64,000 nucleotides of DNA from Bacteroides sp. Lineage in GTDB: Bacteria > Bacteroidota > Bacteroidia > Bacteroidales > Muribaculaceae. The notes below the pieces were generated by a model. That model made no database searches. It saw only the letters and a program-made list of their open reading frames with translations, and was not told the origin of the DNA. The DNA lies in the NCBI GenBank assembly GCA_014802325.1, contig JAAVCK010000010.1, positions 124,001 through 188,000 on the forward strand, written 5' to 3'. Shown piece after piece: positions 29,511 to 47,836 of this stretch (the first letter of the stretch is position 1; every line of letters starts with the position of its first letter). The position numbers were made by a program, and so were the translations under genes.

Positions 29511-29554
29511 AGATTTTGTGGGTGCGTAGATTTTATTTTTAGGTGTAAATTTTG

Positions 29555-29562
29555 TATATTTG
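29555..29562 (+). promoter_or_regulatory. -7 box of the DsbD operon
   Basis: TATATTTG at 29555-29562, 34 nt upstream of the ATG at 29597, in T-rich DNA. The -33 region is T-rich without an exact TTTG. Confidence 0.5.
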
Positions 29563-29596
29563 CATGATAATTATCAAGAAATTCATTATTTCAGAT

Positions 29597-30079
29597 ATGA
29601 AAAGATATATACTTATACTCGCCTGTGTGGTAGCAGCCGCTATGGGAATAGCTCTTCGCGCTCAGGCTCCCGAATCGCCCATACGGTGGCGTATGTCAGT
29701 AAAGATGACTTCGGCTACCGAAGGAGTGGTGACCCTCAAGGCCACAGTGGCTCCGGGCTGGCATCTTTATTCCACCACACTTCCGTCGAGCGACGGTCCG
29801 CGTCCTACGGTGATCACATTCTCCCATCCCACCTCTATGACCTTTACTTCACCTCTCAAGGCTTCGGCTGCGGTGGTGGAAAAGGACGATCCTATGTTTG
29901 GCGTGCGTCTTGCCTGGTGGGATACCGATGTTACATTTACCCGGCAGTTTACCACCACGTCAGCCGACGCTCCCGGTAAGGTGGATGTCAAGGTGACTTT
30001 CATGGGTTGCAACGACGAGACCTGTCTGCCCCCCGCCACTGTTGAGTTGTCACGAACCGTAAAACCATTCGCAAAATAA
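29597..30079 (+). CDS. Stand-alone DsbD N-terminal (alpha) domain protein
   Basis: Periplasmic 160-aa protein consisting of a signal peptide (residues 1-22, ILILACVVAAAMGIALRAQ) and one DsbD-alpha Ig-like domain. Its motifs PIRWRMSVK, APGWHLYSTTLP, DGPRPT and FMGCNDETCLPP parallel those at the N-terminus of the full DsbD encoded next (PIRW, KGWHLYGMTLP, GGPRPT, FQGCDDSACMAP). The paired cysteines in GCxxxxC correspond to the redox pair that passes electrons to periplasmic partners. The start is the ATG at 29597; upstream residues in the same frame overlap the promoter. The stop shares one base with the next ATG. Confidence 0.85.
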   Translation: MKRYILILACVVAAAMGIALRAQAPESPIRWRMSVKMTSATEGVVTLKATVAPGWHLYSTTLPSSDGPRPTVITFSHPTSMTFTSPLKASAAVVEKDDPMFGVRLAWWDTDVTFTRQFTTTSADAPGKVDVKVTFMGCNDETCLPPATVELSRTVKPFAK

Positions 30080-32064
30080 TGAACCGTATCCTTAAGGCTT
30101 TAACGCTAATATTTATGTCGGTGCTGTCGCTCAATGCGGCGGCACAGCTTGTCAATCCCATACGCTGGACTTCAAATGTAAAAAACATATCGTCGACAGA
30201 GGCTGAACTGGTGTTTCACGCATCGGTCGACAAGGGCTGGCATCTTTACGGTATGACCTTGCCCGACGGCGGTCCGCGTCCCACGCATTTTGAATTTACC
30301 ACCCTGAAGGGTTGTAAGCTCTCAGGCGACGTGACACCGTCGGTGGCTCCTATCACCAAGGTCGACATGGTGTTTCACCTCGAACTCTCGTGGTGGGAAA
30401 GCGATGTGACGTTCACTCAGAAACTCCATATCACCGACCCCGACGCCTGGCACGCTGCCGGCTACATCTCATTTCAGGGATGCGACGACAGTGCCTGCAT
30501 GGCTCCCACCAAGGAGGCATTTGACTTTGCCGGACACGCTTCAGCACCTGCCGAGGATGACTCCGACCCTGTAGCCGAGACTCCTGCCGTGGTAAAAACG
30601 ACCGCTTCATCGGCCGACGAAGCGGCATGGTGGGCACCTGTCACCCTCCCCAAAGCCGGCGACACCGATCCCACGGCCTCGGGCGACTTGTCGGGCAGCA
30701 GCATGTGGTATATCTTTTTCTGGGGATTCATGGGCGGTCTGCTCGCGCTTATGACTCCGTGCGTGTGGCCCATGATACCGCTTACAGTGAGCTTCTTCCT
30801 CAAAAAGACCTCATCACGTTCGCGCTCCATACGCGATGCTGCCATATATGGCGCGTCCATCATAGTGATATACCTGCTTCTCGGCTTGGCTATCACGCTG
30901 ATATTCGGAGCAAGCAAGCTGAATGAACTCTCAACCAACGCCGTGTTCAATCTGCTTTTCTTCGGACTGCTCGTGGTGTTTGCCATCTCGTTTTTCGGAG
31001 CATTTGACATCACGCTTCCCTCGAAGTGGAGCAACTCTATGGATGGAGCTGTGGAGCGCACCAGCGGCATGCTGAGCATATTCTTTATGGCCTTTACTCT
31101 CGCGCTTGTATCATTTTCGTGCACCGGTCCCATTATAGGCACGCTGCTCGTGGAGGCAGCCACCATGAACGATATCACCGGCCCGGCCGTAGGAATGGGT
31201 GCTTTTGCGCTGGCTCTCGCCATACCGTTCACATTGTTTGCCATATTTCCCTCGTGGCTTAAAAGTATGCCGCGCTCGGGCGGATGGCTCAATTCGGTCA
31301 AGGTGGTGCTCGGATTCCTTGAACTGGCGCTTTCGCTGAAATTTCTCTCGGTGGCTGACCTGGCTTACGGGTGGGGTATACTCGACCGCGAGGTATTCAT
31401 ATCGCTGTGGGTGATGATATTCGTGTTGCTTGGTCTGTATCTGCTCGGCAAGCTGCGTTTCAGCCATGACTCCGAGCTCGACCACGTGTCGCTGCCGCGC
31501 TTCTTCCTTGCCCTTGCGTCGCTCAGTTTCGCCGTATATCTTGTGCCCGGTCTGTGGGGAGCTCCACTCAAAGGAGTGAGTGCATTTGTGCCCCCGCTCT
31601 ACACTCAGGATCTCAATCTCTATGCCGGCGGACAGTTCCGCGAGTTTAGCGACTATGACGAAGGCATGCGATTTGCAGCACAGAATAATCGCCCCGTGCT
31701 CATCGACTTCTCGGGACACGGCTGCGTAAATTGCCGCAAAATGGAGGGAGCCGTGTTTGACACTCAGGAAGTGAGCGGTATCATCCGTGAAAATTTCGTA
31801 CTGATAAAACTTATGGTCGACGAGCGCCGTGACCTTCCGCAGCCCGTCACTGTAGATGAAAACGGCCGCAAGGTCACACTTGAGACCGTGGGCGAGAAGT
31901 GGAGCTATCTCCAGCGCAGCAAGTTCGGCGCCAATACCCAGCCTTTCTACGTGATACTTGACAATCAGGGTCAGCCGCTCAACCATGCATATTCCTACGA
32001 CGAAAATGTGGCCAAGTTTGTAGACTGGCTTCAGGCCGGAGTAGATAATTATCTCAAAAAATGA
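30079..32064 (+). CDS. dsbD: Thiol:disulfide interchange protein DsbD
   Basis: Membrane electron conduit bringing reducing power from cytoplasmic thioredoxin to periplasmic dithiols. The 661-aa protein has a signal peptide (1-23), an alpha domain with GCDDSAC (about 135), a linker, an eight-helix DsbD/CcdA-like core carrying the redox cysteines in LMTPCVWPMIPLTVSFFLKK and FSCTGPIIGTLL, and a C-terminal thioredoxin-like domain with CVNC in DFSGHGCVNCRKMEG. All three redox pairs are present. It is translationally coupled to a second copy of its own alpha domain upstream and overlaps mazG by 4 bp. Confidence 0.95.
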   Translation: MNRILKALTLIFMSVLSLNAAAQLVNPIRWTSNVKNISSTEAELVFHASVDKGWHLYGMTLPDGGPRPTHFEFTTLKGCKLSGDVTPSVAPITKVDMVFHLELSWWESDVTFTQKLHITDPDAWHAAGYISFQGCDDSACMAPTKEAFDFAGHASAPAEDDSDPVAETPAVVKTTASSADEAAWWAPVTLPKAGDTDPTASGDLSGSSMWYIFFWGFMGGLLALMTPCVWPMIPLTVSFFLKKTSSRSRSIRDAAIYGASIIVIYLLLGLAITLIFGASKLNELSTNAVFNLLFFGLLVVFAISFFGAFDITLPSKWSNSMDGAVERTSGMLSIFFMAFTLALVSFSCTGPIIGTLLVEAATMNDITGPAVGMGAFALALAIPFTLFAIFPSWLKSMPRSGGWLNSVKVVLGFLELALSLKFLSVADLAYGWGILDREVFISLWVMIFVLLGLYLLGKLRFSHDSELDHVSLPRFFLALASLSFAVYLVPGLWGAPLKGVSAFVPPLYTQDLNLYAGGQFREFSDYDEGMRFAAQNNRPVLIDFSGHGCVNCRKMEGAVFDTQEVSGIIRENFVLIKLMVDERRDLPQPVTVDENGRKVTLETVGEKWSYLQRSKFGANTQPFYVILDNQGQPLNHAYSYDENVAKFVDWLQAGVDNYLKK

Positions 32065-39244: not shown

Positions 39245-40312
39245 TCAGAGGTGTCTGCTGACTTTATCTATGATGATCTGCGGAGCTATTCCGGCCAGAC
39301 AGTGATAGTCGGCCCGATGGCAGGGCTTGTCGCCAAACACCGAGCACGGGCGGCACGTCATGGAGAGCTGCACTATATCAGAGTCGGCCTGACGCCATCC
39401 TCTGAATCCGCAGTAGGGGTGAGTGGCACCCCAGATGCTGACCACCGGAGTGCGTACGAGCGACGCGAGATGCATGTTGGCCGAGTCCATTGACACCATT
39501 ACATCAAGATGGCTGAGCAGAGAAAGCTCTACCGCAAAGCCGTGGCGCTTCGATGCGAGCGATACGGTGTGGGGAAAGCGAGCCGCCCAGTCGCCGAGCA
39601 CATCGGCCTCTTCCTTGCCACCGCCGAAAAGAAATATCTTCACGGAGGGCATAGCGGCGAAATGATCCACTACCTTTTCCATAAGATGGAGAGGGTAGAT
39701 CTTGCCCTTGTGTTTGGCAAATGGTGCTATGCCAATCCACTTTTCGCCGGGAGCTTTGGGCGGGGTGATTTCGGCAAACAGGTCGACCGGTCCTCCACCT
39801 TCCGGATATAGGGAGTTGAATCTGTTTTCCACCACCAGGCCGAGGCGATAGAATACCTCGCGGTAGCGGGCGCGCTGCGAGGTGAGCGGCAGCATTACCT
39901 TGTTGGTCGATCGGGTGAGGCTGCGTTTTTGAGAGCGGCCCTTGTTGAGGCGCGCCACACGTATGCCGCCCAGGCGTGCACGCAAGTCAAGTATGTGAGT
40001 TCGGAGCACATCGTGGAGATCGGCTACGGCATCGAAGTCATATTCACGCCTCAGATCGCCATACAGGCGGTTGACGCCGGTCAGCCCCTTGTATCTCGGA
40101 TCGTTGAGGTCGATGCCCCTGACGGTGACGTTGGCAGGGGGATTGACAAACATACCTGTCATTGACGAGCGGGTCACAAAGATAAATTGCGTGGCCGGGT
40201 TACACAGGGCCACGCTATAGAGCACCGGGATGGTCATTGCTACGTCGCCCAGTGCCGAAAACCGCGTGACCAGCACGCGGCGCGGAGTATTGTCAGCGCT
40301 TTTGTGCGCCAT
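39245..40312 (-). CDS. Glycosyltransferase family 9 (heptosyltransferase-like)
   Basis: GT-B fold transferase of 355 aa, likely adding a heptose or related sugar to lipid A-core or another envelope glycan on the cytoplasmic face of the membrane. The N-terminal donor/acceptor motif is RFSALGDVAMTIPVLY, and the C-terminal donor site has SMDSANMHLASLVRTPVVSIWGATHP-type sequence. The DUF4254 gene overlaps its start by 20 bp; this pair is common in Bacteroidales. The sugar and acceptor are not deducible. Confidence 0.9.
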   Translation of the reverse strand: MAHKSADNTPRRVLVTRFSALGDVAMTIPVLYSVALCNPATQFIFVTRSSMTGMFVNPPANVTVRGIDLNDPRYKGLTGVNRLYGDLRREYDFDAVADLHDVLRTHILDLRARLGGIRVARLNKGRSQKRSLTRSTNKVMLPLTSQRARYREVFYRLGLVVENRFNSLYPEGGGPVDLFAEITPPKAPGEKWIGIAPFAKHKGKIYPLHLMEKVVDHFAAMPSVKIFLFGGGKEEADVLGDWAARFPHTVSLASKRHGFAVELSLLSHLDVMVSMDSANMHLASLVRTPVVSIWGATHPYCGFRGWRQADSDIVQLSMTCRPCSVFGDKPCHRADYHCLAGIAPQIIIDKVSRHL

Positions 40313-40904
40313 AGAGCACGGGGTTGGTCGACGGATCGTTATACATCTTCATCTGGCGGTATACCTTCATGTATTTGTGTCCGGTCTCTATATCGGCCAG
40401 AAGATCGTCAATAGCCGCGATCAGGTCGGCGCGCTGCTCCAGGAGCACGTTGAGTTTGGCCTGACAGCGGGCCACGTGTTCGGCCGACGCATCGGGGCGA
40501 TTGACCTCGGCGAGCATGTGGTAGATCTTGACAGCGAGAATCGACAGGCGGTCGAGAGCCCAAGCCGGGCTTTCGGTATTGATCTTAGCCTCGGACAGAG
40601 GCTCCACGCCGGCATATTTATCGAGGAAATAGGTGTCGAGCTGCTCCACCATATCGGTGCGCACCTGATTGGAGCGGTCGATGCGGCGCTTGAGTTCGAG
40701 AGCTGCCACGGGATCTATCTGCGGATCACGTATTATATCTTCAAGATGCCACTGCACTACGTCGATCCAGTTTTTCTCAAACAGCGTATGCTCCACCGAG
40801 CCTTCGGGATAAGGGTTGGGGCAGGGAGTGTCGACATTATCAGTCACGTGATATGCTTTGGTGGCTTCTTCAAAAATATCGAAGCTCTTTTTTGCAAAAT
40901 TCAT
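40293..40904 (-). CDS. DUF4254 domain protein
   Basis: 203-aa soluble, helical protein with the DUF4254 features FEEATKAYHVTDNVDTPCPNP, EKNWIDVVQWHLEDIIRDP and DRLSILAVKIYHM. The function is unknown, but the gene regularly precedes or overlaps glycosyltransferase 9 genes in Bacteroidota, as here by 20 bp. A role in the same envelope-glycan pathway is therefore plausible. It starts the operon downstream of the promoter at 40932-40963. Confidence 0.85.
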   Translation of the reverse strand: MNFAKKSFDIFEEATKAYHVTDNVDTPCPNPYPEGSVEHTLFEKNWIDVVQWHLEDIIRDPQIDPVAALELKRRIDRSNQVRTDMVEQLDTYFLDKYAGVEPLSEAKINTESPAWALDRLSILAVKIYHMLAEVNRPDASAEHVARCQAKLNVLLEQRADLIAAIDDLLADIETGHKYMKVYRQMKMYNDPSTNPVLYGAQKR

Positions 40905-41533: not shown

Positions 41534-42505
41534 ATGTGGTTAACATGTTCATCTGTAGGACGTAAGCTCGTGATGGCTATCACGGGCGCCTGTCTTGTCC
41601 TCTTTGTCACGTTTCACTGCCTGATGAATGGAGTTGCGCTATTCTGGCCCTCGGGCTACAACGCAGTGTGTGAATTCTTAGGCGCCAACTGGTATGCGCT
41701 TGTCGCTACCGTAGGTCTTGCCGCCCTCTTCATCATCCACATCATCTATGCTTTGTGGCTGACAGTACAAAACCGTAACGCCCGCGGCAATGACCGCTAC
41801 GCCGTGACCGCTACCCCCAAGGGTGTGGAATGGTCGTCGCAGAACATGCTCGTGCTCGGTATCGTAGTGCTTGCATTTCTTGTAGTGCACCTGATCCAGT
41901 TCTGGGCCAAGATGCAGCTTCAGGAACTCCTCGGCACCGAGTATGTACACGACGGCGTGGAAGTAGCTCCCGCTGCCGGTACGCTCTTCATCCACCTCGC
42001 TTTCTCACAGGTATGGACTCCGATCGTATACATCATCGGTTTTGTAGCTCTCTGGTTTCATATGAATCACGGCTTCTGGTCGATGTTTCAGACTGCCGGC
42101 TGGGACAATGACACCTGGCTTCCCCGCCTTAAGTGCATCTCATGTTGGTGGACTACCATCGTAGTGGGCCTTTTCATCGCTCAGGCCATTGTGTTCACCG
42201 TGCGTGCCAACACCAATGATTTCGAGACTGAATACAAAGAATATCTTGAGTACAAGGCATCGGAATATGCCCTTTCGACCGACGATTTCAACGCCGGCTT
42301 CCCCTTCTCCGCTCCCGGCTGCGCCGGCCAGGCTGGCTGCGCCGCCGAGTCTACAGAGTGTGGTGCCAAGACCTGCTCACCTGCCGCTTGCGGTAAGGAA
42401 GTGTGCCAAGGCCCCGAATGTTCGCCCGCTGTTTGCGGCAAGGAGTCTTGCAAAGGCGCGCAGTGCGACACCGAGGCATGCGGAAATCCCGGCTGTGCGA
42501 AGTAA
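41534..42505 (+). CDS. frdC: Succinate dehydrogenase/fumarate reductase cytochrome b subunit with Cys-pentad tail
   Basis: Membrane anchor of the quinol:fumarate reductase/succinate dehydrogenase complex, binding heme b and quinone. The first ~225 residues contain five membrane helices (about 15-35, 50-70, 100-120, 145-175, 200-222), as in the Bacteroides-type single-subunit cytochrome b. The protein is 323 aa, about 90 longer than expected. After a hydrophilic stretch, residues 262-323 hold 12 cysteines, ten of them in a strict C-x4-C register (CSPAACGKEVCQGPEC, CSPAVCGKESCKGAQC). The tail is in frame and uses the same codon style as its neighbours. Its function is unknown; metal or cluster binding is a guess. 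Confidence 0.93.
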   Translation: MWLTCSSVGRKLVMAITGACLVLFVTFHCLMNGVALFWPSGYNAVCEFLGANWYALVATVGLAALFIIHIIYALWLTVQNRNARGNDRYAVTATPKGVEWSSQNMLVLGIVVLAFLVVHLIQFWAKMQLQELLGTEYVHDGVEVAPAAGTLFIHLAFSQVWTPIVYIIGFVALWFHMNHGFWSMFQTAGWDNDTWLPRLKCISCWWTTIVVGLFIAQAIVFTVRANTNDFETEYKEYLEYKASEYALSTDDFNAGFPFSAPGCAGQAGCAAESTECGAKTCSPAACGKEVCQGPECSPAVCGKESCKGAQCDTEACGNPGCAK

Positions 42506-42569: not shown

Positions 42570-44597
42570 ATGGCAGATATAAAGAATCTCGATGGGATGA
42601 TCGATTCTACCCCCATCATGAAGGATTTTGCCGACATCGAATCCTCCAAGCTACCTGAATATCAGATAGACTCCAAGATACCCGAGGGACCGCTCGCGCA
42701 GAAGTGGACCAACTACAAGGCCCACCAGAAGCTCGTCAATCCCGCCAACAAGCGCAACCTCGACATCATAGTCGTAGGTACCGGTCTTGCCGGTGCATCG
42801 GCTGCCTCAACTCTTGCCGAACTGGGCTTCAACGTGTGGAACTTCTGTATCCAGGATTCTCCCCGTCGCGCTCACTCGATCGCCGCTCAGGGCGGTATCA
42901 ACGCCGCTAAGGATTATCAGAACGACGGCGACTCGGTATACCGTCTGTTTTACGACACGGTAAAGGGCGGTGACTTCCGTTCGCGCGAGGCCAACGTATA
43001 CCGTCTGGCCGAGGTGTCCAACAATATCATTGACCAGTGCGTGCAGCAGGGTGTACCTTTCGCCCGCGAGTACGGCGGTCTGCTCGCCAACCGCTCATTC
43101 GGCGGCGCGCAGGTATCGCGTACGTTCTACGCCAAAGGTCAGACCGGCCAGCAGCTCCTGCTGGGTGCATACTCGTCGCTCAACCGTCAGATCGAGAAGG
43201 GTCAGGTGCGCTCGTTCAACCGTCGCGAAATGCTTGACCTTGTGATCATCGACGGCCGTGCCCGCGGTATCATCGTGCGCAATCTCATCACCGGTGAACT
43301 TGAGCGCTATGCCGCTCACGCTGTGGTGCTGGCTACCGGTGGCTACGGCCGCACATTCTTCCTTTCGACCAACGCTATGGGCTGCAACGGCTCGGCTGCC
43401 ATCCAGGCTTTCCGCCGCGGCGCATACCTTGCCAATCTCGCCTTCACTCAGATCCACCCCACCTGTATTCCCGTGCACGGCGAAGATCAGTCGAAGCTCA
43501 CGCTCATGAGCGAGTCGCTCCGCAACGATGGCCGCATCTGGGTTCCCGCCAAGAAGGAAGATGCCGAAGCTATCCGCGCCGGCAAAAAGAAACCTACCGA
43601 TATCCCCGACGAAGACCGCGACTTCTATCTCGAACGCCGCTACCCGGCATTCGGTAACCTCTGTCCCCGCGACATCGCTTCGCGTGCCGCCAAGGAGCGC
43701 TGCGACGCCGGATTCGGTGTAGGTACGGGCAACGCCGTATATCTCGACTTCAAGTATGCCATCGAGCGTCTGGGCGAGGATGTGGTACGTGACCGCTACG
43801 GCAATCTCTTCGACATGTATCAGATGATCTCCGATGATAATCCCTACGAGACTCCCATGATGATATTCCCCGCATCGCACTACACCATGGGCGGTATCTG
43901 GGTTGACTACGAGCTTCAGACCTCGATCAAGGGTCTCTTCGCTATCGGCGAATGTAACTTCTCTGATCACGGTGCAAACCGTCTGGGCGCATCGGCTCTC
44001 ATGCAGGGTCTTGCCGACGGTTACTTCGTGCTCCCCTACACTATGCAGAACTATCTTGCCGATCAGATCAAGGTGAAACATCCCGGCACGGATCATCCCG
44101 AGTTTGATAAAGTGGAGAAAGAGGTGCGTGACCGTATAGCCCGCCTGATGAACATCAAGGGTACCAAGTCGCCCGATCAGATCCACAAGCGTCTCGGCCA
44201 CGTGATGTGGAACCTCGTAGGTATGGGTCGCACACTTCAGAGCCTCGTGAAAGCTACTGAGGAGATAGCTGACGTGCGCAAGGAATTCTACAGCGACCTC
44301 CGCATCGTGGGCAGCGCCGACGATCTCAACACCGAGCTCGAAAAGGCTCTCCGCCTCGAAGACTTCCTCGAAATGGCCCGCATGATGGCTATTGACGCCC
44401 TCAACCGCAACGAATCGTGCGGCGCTCACTTCCGTGAGGAATACCAGACTGCCGACGGCGAGGCTGCCCGCAACGATAAGGACTATATGTACGTATCGTG
44501 CTGGAAGTACACCGGCGACAACGAGCGTCCCATCCTGCTCAAGGAGCCCCTCAACTACGAGGAAATCCAGGTACAGACCCGTAACTATAAATCCTGA
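42570..44597 (+). CDS. frdA: Fumarate reductase/succinate dehydrogenase flavoprotein subunit
   Basis: Catalytic subunit interconverting succinate and fumarate; in gut Bacteroidales it mainly reduces fumarate on the way to succinate and propionate. The 675-aa protein has the FAD-binding motif [15 protein letters not shown] (67-80) and covalent-FAD histidine H102 in [15 protein letters not shown]. The active-site segments include [11 protein letters not shown] and [20 protein letters not shown]. An N-terminal extension of about 30 residues precedes the usual [20 protein letters not shown] start. It lies 64 bp after frdC and 50 bp before frdB. Confidence 0.97.
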
Positions 44598-44647: not shown

Positions 44648-45403
44648 ATGGAATCTACTATAAATGTAAATCTCAGAATTTGGCGCCAGCGTGGCCCCAA
44701 AGAACCCGGTAAGCTCGTTGACTACCGCGTGGAAAACGTATCCACCGGTTCGAGCTTCCTCGAAATGCTCGACATGCTCAATCAGCAGCTCGTAGAGAAG
44801 GGCGAAGAGCCTGTGGTGTTTGACAGCGACTGCCGCGAAGGTATCTGCGGCATGTGCTCGCTCTACATCAACGGACACCCCCACGGCCCCGTGCAGGGCA
44901 TCACTACCTGCCAGCTCCATATGCGTAAGTTTCACAACGAGGAGACCATCACCATCGAGCCCTGGCGTTCGGCAGCGTTCCCCATCGTGCGCGACCTCAT
45001 GGTTGACCGCAACGCTTTCGACAAGATCCAGCAGGCCGGCGGCTATGTATCGTTCAACTGCGGAGGCGCTCAGGATGCCAACAATCTCCCCATCTCCAAG
45101 GAAGTAGCCGACATAGCTATGGACTCGGCCACCTGTATAGGTTGCGGCGCCTGCGTGGCAGCTTGCAAAAACGGTTCGGCCATGCTCTTTGTCAGCGCCA
45201 AGGTTAGCCAGTTTGCCCTCCTGCCCCAGGGTCAGGTAGAGCGCGCGCGTCGTGCCCGCAAGATGGTGGCCCGCATGGACGAACTCGGTTTCGGTAACTG
45301 CACCAACACCGGTGCCTGCGCCGCCGAGTGCCCCAAGAACGTACCTCTGAGCAACATCGCCCGCCTCAACCGCGAGTTTATCAAAGCCAAGCTCAAAGAC
45401 TGA
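44648..45403 (+). CDS. frdB: Fumarate reductase/succinate dehydrogenase iron-sulfur subunit
   Basis: Electron-transfer subunit linking flavin to heme/quinone. The 251-aa protein has the 2Fe-2S ligands in [19 protein letters not shown] with a later cysteine (TTCQ), then [14 protein letters not shown] and [17 protein letters not shown] for the 4Fe-4S and 3Fe-4S clusters. All expected cysteines are present. It is the last gene of the frdCAB operon and is followed 21 bp later by a perfect terminator hairpin. Confidence 0.97.
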
Positions 45404-46029: not shown

Positions 46030-46563
46030 TCAGATGTCGCTTTCGGATACGTAGCCGTTCATCACGGCGTAGATGCCGAGGCCTGAGATGCTTTTTATGC
46101 CGAGCTTGGCGGTGATGTTTTTGCGGTGGGTGAGCACGGTGTTGATGCTGATGGAGAGCCGGTCGGCAATCTCTTTGTTGATACAGCCGCGGGCGAGCAG
46201 GCGAAGCACGTCGATCTCGCGCTGCGAGAGGGTGGACTGTTCGACAGCCGGCGCCGGGAGCGACGAGAGGATTTCTTGAATGCGTTCGAGAAGTGCTTCA
46301 GAGCCGAGCGTGGGGTCGATGGTGAGAAATGTGTCAGAGGCATATGCGGTGACCACAGCCGTGGTCTTGCGCCTCGGGGCGAAAAAGGCCGAGTGCTCCA
46401 CCACTGCGTCGGCATCGGCTATCCATAATGCGGGTTCGGTGTCGGGCGGAGAAGCGGGCGACACGCTTACTACCGAGGCATCGGTGATAATGCCCAGCAG
46501 ACGCCTGAGACCTTCGGAGCGGAGGGTGTCGCGGCTTACTATTGCTATGGAGCGGCGTTTCAT
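46030..46563 (-). CDS. LuxR-type transcriptional regulator with degenerate receiver-like domain
   Basis: 177 aa. The C-terminal LuxR/GerE helix-turn-helix is clear: LSQREIDVLRLLARGCINKEIADRLSISINTVLTHRKNITAKLGI (in parts, residues about 112-157). The N-terminal 100 residues resemble a response-regulator receiver only loosely: the expected phosphate-site acidic pocket is not obvious, and the segment ends in a serine/proline linker. It overlaps the degenerate hemerythrin-like gene by 4 bp, so the pair is probably one regulatory module. Target genes are unknown. Confidence 0.85.
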   Translation of the reverse strand: MKRRSIAIVSRDTLRSEGLRRLLGIITDASVVSVSPASPPDTEPALWIADADAVVEHSAFFAPRRKTTAVVTAYASDTFLTIDPTLGSEALLERIQEILSSLPAPAVEQSTLSQREIDVLRLLARGCINKEIADRLSISINTVLTHRKNITAKLGIKSISGLGIYAVMNGYVSESDI

Positions 46564-47243
46564 CGCTTGGAGGCGAGCGCGAGAGCTGCCGGACGCAGTA
46601 TGAGGTTACGTATACGGTTGTTCTTGCTCAGGTCGGAGCGGAGGCCGTCGACGGCCACTACGGTGGCATAGCACAGGTTGGGGTCGTAGTGACCCGATAT
46701 GTTTCTCACTATCATGCTGAGCAGGTCGGCGAGCATCTCCTCTACGGCTTCGGCGGCAGCTGTGTCCACGGCGGGGGTATCACATTCACCGCCTTCGCCC
46801 GAGGCCAGCGAGCGCAGGGTGGGGAAGAGGGAGCGCATGTCGGAGTCGATGAGAGCCATGAGGTCGGTCTTGGCTTTGTCAAACAGGCGGCGCAGCAGCG
46901 TCAGGCTCGAATTGTCAGGGCCCGATGCTACGAGAGCGTTGAAGTGTCGCTCGATATTGGGTATCTGGAAGTGGAGATAGTAGCGGTCAGTGAGTTCGAG
47001 ATAGCTCAGCATGGTGGGCATGTCGACGCGGCTGAGCGCGTTGGCCGGGAAGTAGTCGCGGCAGGCAAACGTGTTGATTATCGTAAGCAGAAAGTCGGCC
47101 GAAAGGTGGTGAGCCCCGGCTACCTCCGCTACTGACCTGTCGTCGGTGCCGAGGGCTATGCCCAGACGGTTGATGACAGGGATTATCGAGGGGTCGGCGA
47201 GTATCACCTCGCTCAGCGGTGTATCGGTAGAGATTATTTTCAT
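46560..47243 (-). CDS. RIC/hemerythrin-like protein with apparently lost metal ligands
   Basis: 228 aa from the ATG at 47243 (MKIISTDTPLSEVILADPSI); a GTG start at 47288 would overlap the cyclo-ligase gene. The N-terminal 60 residues resemble the DUF542 part of ScdA/RIC iron-centre repair proteins (VINRLGIALGTDDRSVAEV), without its cysteine pair. The rest is a helical bundle like hemerythrin, but the last helix reads LSKNNRIRNLILRP where RIC proteins have HIHLENNILFP-like ligands, so iron binding is doubtful. It may sense or scaffold rather than carry oxygen or NO. It is coupled to the LuxR-type regulator by a 4-bp overlap. Confidence 0.65.
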   Translation of the reverse strand: MKIISTDTPLSEVILADPSIIPVINRLGIALGTDDRSVAEVAGAHHLSADFLLTIINTFACRDYFPANALSRVDMPTMLSYLELTDRYYLHFQIPNIERHFNALVASGPDNSSLTLLRRLFDKAKTDLMALIDSDMRSLFPTLRSLASGEGGECDTPAVDTAAAEAVEEMLADLLSMIVRNISGHYDPNLCYATVVAVDGLRSDLSKNNRIRNLILRPAALALASKR

Positions 47244-47284
47244 GACTTCGGATAGGGGGTGGTGGCGGGAGAGAGGCGGTGAGA

Positions 47285-47836
47285 TCACTTGCGGCGCACC
47301 ACTATGTAGCCGCTCTCGGTGATAACGGCATCCATCATCACGTCGTGAGGCTCTACCGGGACTTCGTCGACAAGCTGGAAGTCATAGCCCACACCTATCT
47401 TAACGGCGCGGGTCGATGCGAGGAGTCTGTCGTAGTAGCCACGGCCACGGCCCAGACGGGCACCTCGGCGGTCATAGGCCACTCCGGGTGTGATGATGAG
47501 CTCTATCTCATCGATCGAGGTGAGGTCGTCACCTGTGGGTTCTTCGATGTGAAATGATCCGAGGGCGAGGCGCTGGCTGTCATAGGGGAGGATTTCGAGA
47601 TTCACACCGTTGACACGCGGCAAGAAGAAGCGTTTGCGTCCGCTCCACTTGGCTATGAACTCGCGGGTTGACAGCTCGTCGGGGAGGGAGTGATACATGA
47701 GAATGTTGCCGGCCAGTATAAACTCGGCCGTCTGCTCAAGCAGGCCGAACACGCGGGCAGCTGCCTGCGTCTTGTCGTGTTCGGTCAGGAGAGTCTTGCG
47801 TGCCTTTACGTGGCGGCGGATATCGTCTTTGTTCAT
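47285..47836 (-). CDS. 5-formyltetrahydrofolate cyclo-ligase
   Basis: ATP-dependent enzyme converting 5-formyl-THF to 5,10-methenyl-THF, returning stored folate to one-carbon metabolism. The 183-aa protein has the family motifs MYHSLPDELSTREF, LPRVNGVNLEILPY, FHIEEPTGDD and the signature GVAYDRRGARLGRGRGYYDRLL. It lies 33 bp after the S41 protease gene and 41 bp before the hemerythrin-like gene, all on the minus strand. Confidence 0.93.
   Translation of the reverse strand: MNKDDIRRHVKARKTLLTEHDKTQAAARVFGLLEQTAEFILAGNILMYHSLPDELSTREFIAKWSGRKRFFLPRVNGVNLEILPYDSQRLALGSFHIEEPTGDDLTSIDEIELIITPGVAYDRRGARLGRGRGYYDRLLASTRAVKIGVGYDFQLVDEVPVEPHDVMMDAVITESGYIVVRRK

Follow-up and report, generated by a model that had tools for sequence, protein, structure and literature searches.

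Within a 64,000-nucleotide stretch of a Bacteroides sp. genome (Muribaculaceae; assembly GCA_014802325.1, contig JAAVCK010000010.1, positions 124,001 to 188,000; hereafter the window) lies a fumarate reductase operon whose membrane anchor, FrdC, ends in a long cysteine-rich tail. This tail was singled out in an original prediction made from the DNA alone, and here we describe its sequence, distribution and evolution and weigh its possible functions. The features of the operon, in window coordinates, are the following.

41534-42505, forward strand: frdC open reading frame, 323 aa, cytochrome b subunit of fumarate reductase
41534..42205, forward strand: FrdC core, residues 1-224, with five transmembrane helices (from the TIGR02046 match, alignment columns and AlphaFold2 model)
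42206..42319, forward strand: linker, residues 225-262, joining the array to the outer end of helix 5 (from sequence and model)
42320..42496, forward strand: cysteine array, residues 263-321, 12 cysteines (from sequence)
42359..42496, forward strand: regular part of the array, residues 276-321, ten cysteines in nine C-x4-C steps
42374..42418, forward strand: copy 1 of a 15-residue (45-nucleotide) unit of three pentads, with 30 of 45 nucleotides in common with copy 2
42419..42463, forward strand: copy 2 of the 15-residue unit (from nucleotide comparison with copy 1)
42570..44597, forward strand: frdA, flavoprotein subunit, same operon (NF005749, 1131.4 bits)
44648..45403, forward strand: frdB, iron-sulfur subunit, same operon (NF005746, 415.5 bits)

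The protein family is known, and the tail is a new variation on it. Residues 6-223 of FrdC match TIGR02046 (SdhC/FrdC b558) at 189.8 bits, relative to a curated cut-off of 96 (E = 4.6e-56), and the broader Pfam model Sdh_cyt scores 18.7 bits, below its cut-off of 25.8. Five histidines (His28, His69, His119, His176 and His179) are histidine in 99 of 99 aligned FrdC sequences; the first four are, by analogy, probably the ligands of two hemes b, and they are placed as needed for the two predicted bis-histidine hemes of a TIGR02046 member. The AlphaFold2 model of the core matches subunit C of the Wolinella and D. gigas quinol:fumarate reductases (QFRs) in a structure comparison for which the top Foldseek chains were re-examined with VIA, and frdA and frdB adjoin the gene, as expected of this family. 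Its own genome has a single copy of the gene, which was recovered from 26 of 27 genus genomes, 368 of 397 family genomes and 267 of 295 order genomes. Relative to the TIGR02046 anchors of diheme QFRs from Wolinella, D. gigas and B. thetaiotaomicron, the window FrdC has about 99 extra residues after helix 5, including the cysteine array, and the end of the family match at residue 223 agrees with the claim that the protein continues beyond its usual terminus.

Translation of the frdC frame confirmed the cysteine pattern that had been reported. The last 62 residues (42317-42502, a span that excludes the stop codon at 42503-42505) contain 12 cysteines, at residues 263, 269, 276, 281, 286, 291, 296, 301, 306, 311, 316 and 321, and the last ten are exactly five residues apart, giving nine C-x4-C intervals. 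When these 62 residues were shuffled 200,000 times the longest run was 5 (in 4 shuffles), which rules out chance spacing. The proposed internal duplication was likewise upheld: residues 281-295 and 296-310 are alike at 30 of 45 nucleotides (4 codons the same, 6 synonymous and 5 non-synonymous), above the best in-frame 45-nucleotide pair inside the core (25 of 45), so duplication accounts for at least part of the array's growth. A third block, at residue 311, is no recognisable copy at the DNA level (15 and 17 of 39 nucleotides). The frame is intact and the codons appear native, as had been predicted, with a GC content at third codon positions (GC3) of 0.66 in the tail and 0.65 in the body. A frameshift or misassembly is very unlikely, since such tails recur in relatives and this one evolves in frame, as coding sequence. 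No Cys-Pro occurs in the window tail. None of its 12 cysteines are 2 or 3 residues apart (CxC, CxxC), which leaves it outside the definition of a CxC/CxxC metallothionein cluster and, in the absence of a Pfam match at E 1, of a thioredoxin-like site. By these Pfam and structure searches the tail is not a known domain, the sole match among solved structures being a TGF-beta receptor at E 0.4. In the window, frdC alone has 50-residue stretches with at least seven cysteines.

Because FrdC has five helices and its N-terminus inside, the tail probably lies in the periplasm, at the outer end of helix 5 and away from FrdA and FrdB, a placement drawn from homologous structures, charge bias and the model. 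The original prediction had put the tail beside the frdA and frdB products, which is not borne out, and its idea of an arm delivering clusters to FrdB is implausible given the periplasmic side. In the AlphaFold2 model helices span residues 195-227 and 230-242, the mean predicted local distance difference test score (pLDDT) is 84 at 241-250 and 54 at 251-260, and the array has low-confidence ten-residue means of 45-63 over 261-320. We infer that the tail is flexible or disordered, and the low model confidence fits disorder, though it may also reflect a thin, unalignable alignment over this region.

Tails of this kind, with 14 and 16 cysteines, also occur in the two closest relatives, whose aligned parts are 92% and 91% identical. 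Absence from all close relatives, which had been named as grounds for dismissing the tail, is not what was observed. We inspected 183 distinct FrdC proteins, 118 from the family and 65 from other families of the order, with identical proteins merged and with one protein cut by a contig end (L026) left out. The proposed survey of the family found, in the 116 family FrdC that remain once two with unknown residues are set aside, 47 long cysteine-rich tails (at least 20 aa, at least 3 cysteines and at least 5% cysteine), 59 long cysteine-poor tails and 10 short ends, in a sample biased by its loci having been taken by similarity to the window or hand-chosen from the listed best matches. The long cysteine tail marks part of Muribaculaceae, not the whole family: it is present in none of 32 FrdC from two divergent genera, the first with 23 proteins and no long tail (9 have a cysteine in the last eight residues) and the second with 9 proteins and short or cysteine-free ends. 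Its carriers include Paramuribaculum intestinale DSM 100749, a type strain available in culture (L061, the same protein as L039), whose tail contains both cysteine and histidine, and L002 FrdC is identical to that of a Duncaniella sp. (L043). When the tail itself was used as the query, frdC was the sole match at E 10 in its own genome. The same search of the genus gave 17 places at E 10, of which four are FrdC (G000, G020, G021 and G005) and the other 13 are weak matches (E 0.014-1.19), many of which lie in short or broken frames; it also missed the cysteine tails of other FrdC proteins, so arrays in other genes are not excluded by it.

Another large group of the family has a cysteine-poor, glutamine-rich FrdC extension of about 100 or more residues (L065, L077, L080, L087, L089, L113, L114, L118 and L230), many of these holding a single cysteine in a QCPD or QCPE motif; four cysteine-poor long tails were searched and gave no Pfam match of note. 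Five records titled Lachnoclostridium, Lachnospiraceae, Staphylococcus, Paenibacillus and Pseudoflavonifractor (L055, L070, L093, L094 and L111) contain a Muribaculaceae-type frdC, so these names of metagenome-assembled genomes look wrong; the L055, L093 and L094 proteins have identical counterparts in genomes of that genus to which the window belongs.

Outside the family but within the order, FrdC stops right after helix 5 in 64 of 65 proteins, L172 being excluded from the 64 for its long tail. In these 64 proteins cysteine makes up 12.1% of the last eight residues versus 1.2% of the body, and those residues include at least one cysteine in 33 and at least two in 20, with ends such as SLCCGAAC (L129), SLCCSGCCL (L130) and FCSCCCTGCC (L184). 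The original prediction had missed that half of these other order members have cysteine at the same place in a short end. For 70 FrdC/SdhC proteins from the rest of the phylum the corresponding values are 0.5% versus 0.6%, with at least one terminal cysteine in 3; both the order and phylum samples lean to better-scoring matches. From these sequences, a preference for cysteine at this site looks like a trait of the order that has been elaborated in part of Muribaculaceae. The short ends occupy the same position after helix 5 of the same gene as the window tail, but they consist of a few residues, often with CC or CxxC, where the window has a long C-x4-C array.

Also missed was that the sequence and repeat unit of the tail are not conserved, mainly the cysteines being kept. 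Repeat units include CEKA, CDKA, CENA, CKKQD, CASDN, CAGEQN, CDGTVE, CPNGP and CTGNHEG, and arrays with different units came and went repeatedly: on a quick maximum-likelihood tree of the core (181 rows) the cysteine-rich tail must have changed state 13 or more times (9 of them forced by starred branches) and the regular array 15 or more times (8 forced), counting losses as well as gains. L172 (277-1098, reverse strand), from another family of the order, has its own array of CDKP-type repeats, apparently independent of that in the window's family. Spacing statistics were pooled over 48 tails, including the end L220 that is counted as short in the tally of 116, and compared with shuffles. Cysteines 5 residues apart are strongly enriched (129 observed versus 31.7), as are those at distance 4 (60 versus 37.8) and distance 6 (54 versus 26.7), and adjacent cysteines (CC) are avoided (28 versus 62 expected). 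At least three equal successive steps are found in 23 of the 48 tails (shuffle mean 1.6, maximum 6), an odd number of cysteines in 22 and at least three histidines in 6, and proline directly after cysteine is two-fold enriched in the arrays.

Purifying selection keeps the cysteines in close pairs of relatives while the spacers drift. In the arrays of seven close, well-aligned pairs, the ratio of non-synonymous to synonymous differences per site (pN/pS) is 0.023 for cysteine codons (54 codons) and 0.35 for other codons (235 codons), and it is 0.050 for the FrdC core of the same pairs; cysteine is identical at 53 of 54 aligned places versus 188 of 235 for other residues (Fisher p = 2.6e-4). These pairs were hand-picked from a ten-pair list, with L002/L003 replacing L001/L002 and with L004/L011, L003/L032 and L009/L015 dropped for unalignable arrays.

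Metal binding and thiol redox chemistry, both raised in the original prediction, remain the best candidate roles, and our tentative preference, held at somewhat under even confidence, is for a putative soft-metal-binding thiol arm. FrdC, the anchor of a membrane quinol:fumarate reductase, would carry a flexible thiol arm at the periplasmic end of its fifth helix, and the cysteine thiolates of this arm would ligate ions of soft or borderline metals (Zn, Cu, Ni or Fe), assisted in some relatives by histidines and carboxylates. The complex would thus bear, on the face where quinol is oxidised, a sleeve that sequesters or buffers metal, and the short cysteine-rich ends of the order may be the minimal form of the same device. 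This reading is favoured by the retention of cysteine, the freedom of the spacers, the variable lengths and the entry of histidine into several arrays independently. Metallothioneins are also rich in cysteine with little else conserved, but CxC, which is typical of them, is avoided in FrdC tails, and the array is not a free protein. A closer parallel is provided by SlyD and H. pylori HspA, which have Cys/His-rich C-terminal extensions according to the available part of one report (PMC7840056). As in FrdC, a cysteine-rich tail of variable length is attached to a housekeeping protein, and histidine joins in some FrdC relatives; the hosts there are a prolyl isomerase or GroES, whereas here the host is a respiratory anchor and the array a regular C-x4-C one. 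No sequence relation is known, and since FrdC has no FKBP or GroES domain by Pfam, its tail may work like those of SlyD and HspA without being a member of either family.

Several observations weigh against a metal-binding arm. The window tail contains no histidine, and the tails of SlyD and HspA are cytoplasmic, whereas that of FrdC is probably periplasmic. Across the 48 tails CxC is avoided (5 observed versus 53 expected) and CxxC is not enriched (36 versus 44.6), so compact thiolate sites are not favoured and the spacing statistics speak instead for the thiol-disulfide reservoir considered below. The presence of a VKOR-domain protein suggests an oxidising periplasm, in which free thiolates may not last. 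With L001/L002 in place of L002/L003, pN/pS is 0.099 for cysteine versus 0.40 for other codons (p = 9e-4), and in the automatic ten-pair set, which includes three pairs with badly aligning arrays, cysteine is the same at 62 of 81 places over the whole tail versus 432 of 574 for other residues, that is, no difference. We read both pair sets as meaning that cysteines are kept while an array lasts and that whole arrays get replaced.

Nearly as likely is a putative periplasmic thiol-disulfide reservoir, in which the evenly spaced cysteines would exchange electrons with a VKOR-type oxidase (via menaquinone) and a DsbD-type reductase, and would buffer oxidants or electrophiles close to the quinol site, at which the enzyme oxidises menaquinol. 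The VKOR-domain protein is encoded in the same genome and DsbD in the window; the enrichment of spacings 4-6 and the avoidance of CxC and CC fit thiols that act independently or bridge locally better than they fit metal clusters; and cytochrome bd, found in 25 of 27 genus genomes including this one, indicates that oxygen is probably met. Of the nine genus members without a tail, 8 have VKOR and all 9 have cytochrome bd, so neither enzyme tracks the tail and the content of either is rejected as its predictor. The tail has no linked partner, and B. thetaiotaomicron Frd is reported, in the accessible part of one paper, not to generate reactive oxygen species, weakening the need for local protection from them (PMC5210497). 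The same paper reports that B. thetaiotaomicron frdCAB yields active enzyme when expressed in E. coli without frd and sdh. We rank the metal arm above the reservoir because histidine in several arrays needs explaining and odd cysteine counts are common.

It is improbable that disulfides of the tail tie fumarate reductase complexes together or to envelope partners. The many cysteines on a flexible arm and the frequent odd counts would allow this, and multimers of purified H. pylori SlyD were ascribed by the authors to disulfides of its cysteine-rich tail (PMC7840056, part of the text), but there is no known partner and the tail lacks the sequence conservation that a docking site would show. Slightly less likely again is a bolder scheme, in which the periplasmic cysteine site at the end of helix 5 would be a new Bacteroidales module on the quinol side of fumarate reductase, expanded to polythiol arrays in part of Muribaculaceae. 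Through it, thiols of the periplasm (or metals bound to them) would trade electrons with the menaquinone pool or the distal heme. It is very unlikely that the tail is a tolerated disordered end that has grown neutrally as repeats duplicated, with cysteine incidental. The duplicated unit, the wide variation of lengths and units, the short ends in 10 of 116 family members, the two genera with no long cysteine tail and the equality of cysteine and other residues in the ten-pair tally are in its favour; the far stronger constraint on cysteine codons than on their neighbours in well-aligned pairs, the excess of regular runs, the presence of about one cysteine per 4-7 residues in each of the differing units and the enrichment of cysteine at the same place in tail-less order members tell against it. 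We consider it most doubtful of all that the arm captures periplasmic heme and passes it to apo-FrdC. Bacteroidales depend on outside heme, Cys-Pro occurs as a heme motif and proline is enriched after cysteine in the arrays, and the four probable heme-ligand histidines are invariant; yet tail-less relatives retain the same histidines, and Cys-Pro is missing from the window tail. Among 47 tails the c-type cytochrome motif CxxCH is found in none, which rules out covalent heme attachment, and C-x4-CH is found once (L212).

Other genes near the operon are as follows.

29552-32064, forward strand: DsbD_N-domain protein, then full DsbD (DsbD_N, DsbD_TM and thioredoxin domains; Pfam)
39245-40904, reverse strand, upstream of frdC: heptosyltransferase-like gene (Glyco_transf_9) overlapping a DUF4254 gene
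46030-47288, reverse strand, next after frdB: LuxR-type regulator (GerE) and a 242-aa protein

The DsbD pair is a route for electrons into the periplasm. The VKOR-domain protein lies elsewhere in the genome (locus L235, G000:C16, 903-1931, reverse strand; Pfam VKOR, E 9.5e-12) and has a Peptidase_C39-like N-terminus whose match is just under the cut-off; VKOR matches occur in 20 of 27 genus genomes. The start of the 242-aa protein has, by eye, what we take to be a resemblance to iron-centre repair (RIC/ScdA) proteins, although Pfam gave no match for the protein up to E 5.

Full-text searches of open-licence papers, judged on titles and the starts of abstracts, returned no description of such an FrdC tail, and the available part of a paper modelling the Prevotella QFR mentions none (PMC10739449). 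Gut Bacteroidales have fumarate reductase as their main respiratory sink, and the anchor of this enzyme has been treated as a plain five-helix heme protein. The same problem has seemingly been met repeatedly with new repeat units, so that comparison can test what the arms do. If they bind metals, an abundant respiratory complex would also provide the envelope with a metal sleeve; if they carry out redox chemistry, fumarate respiration would be linked to periplasmic thiol chemistry, and in the case of an order-wide electron-exchanging module that chemistry would be wired directly into fumarate respiration.
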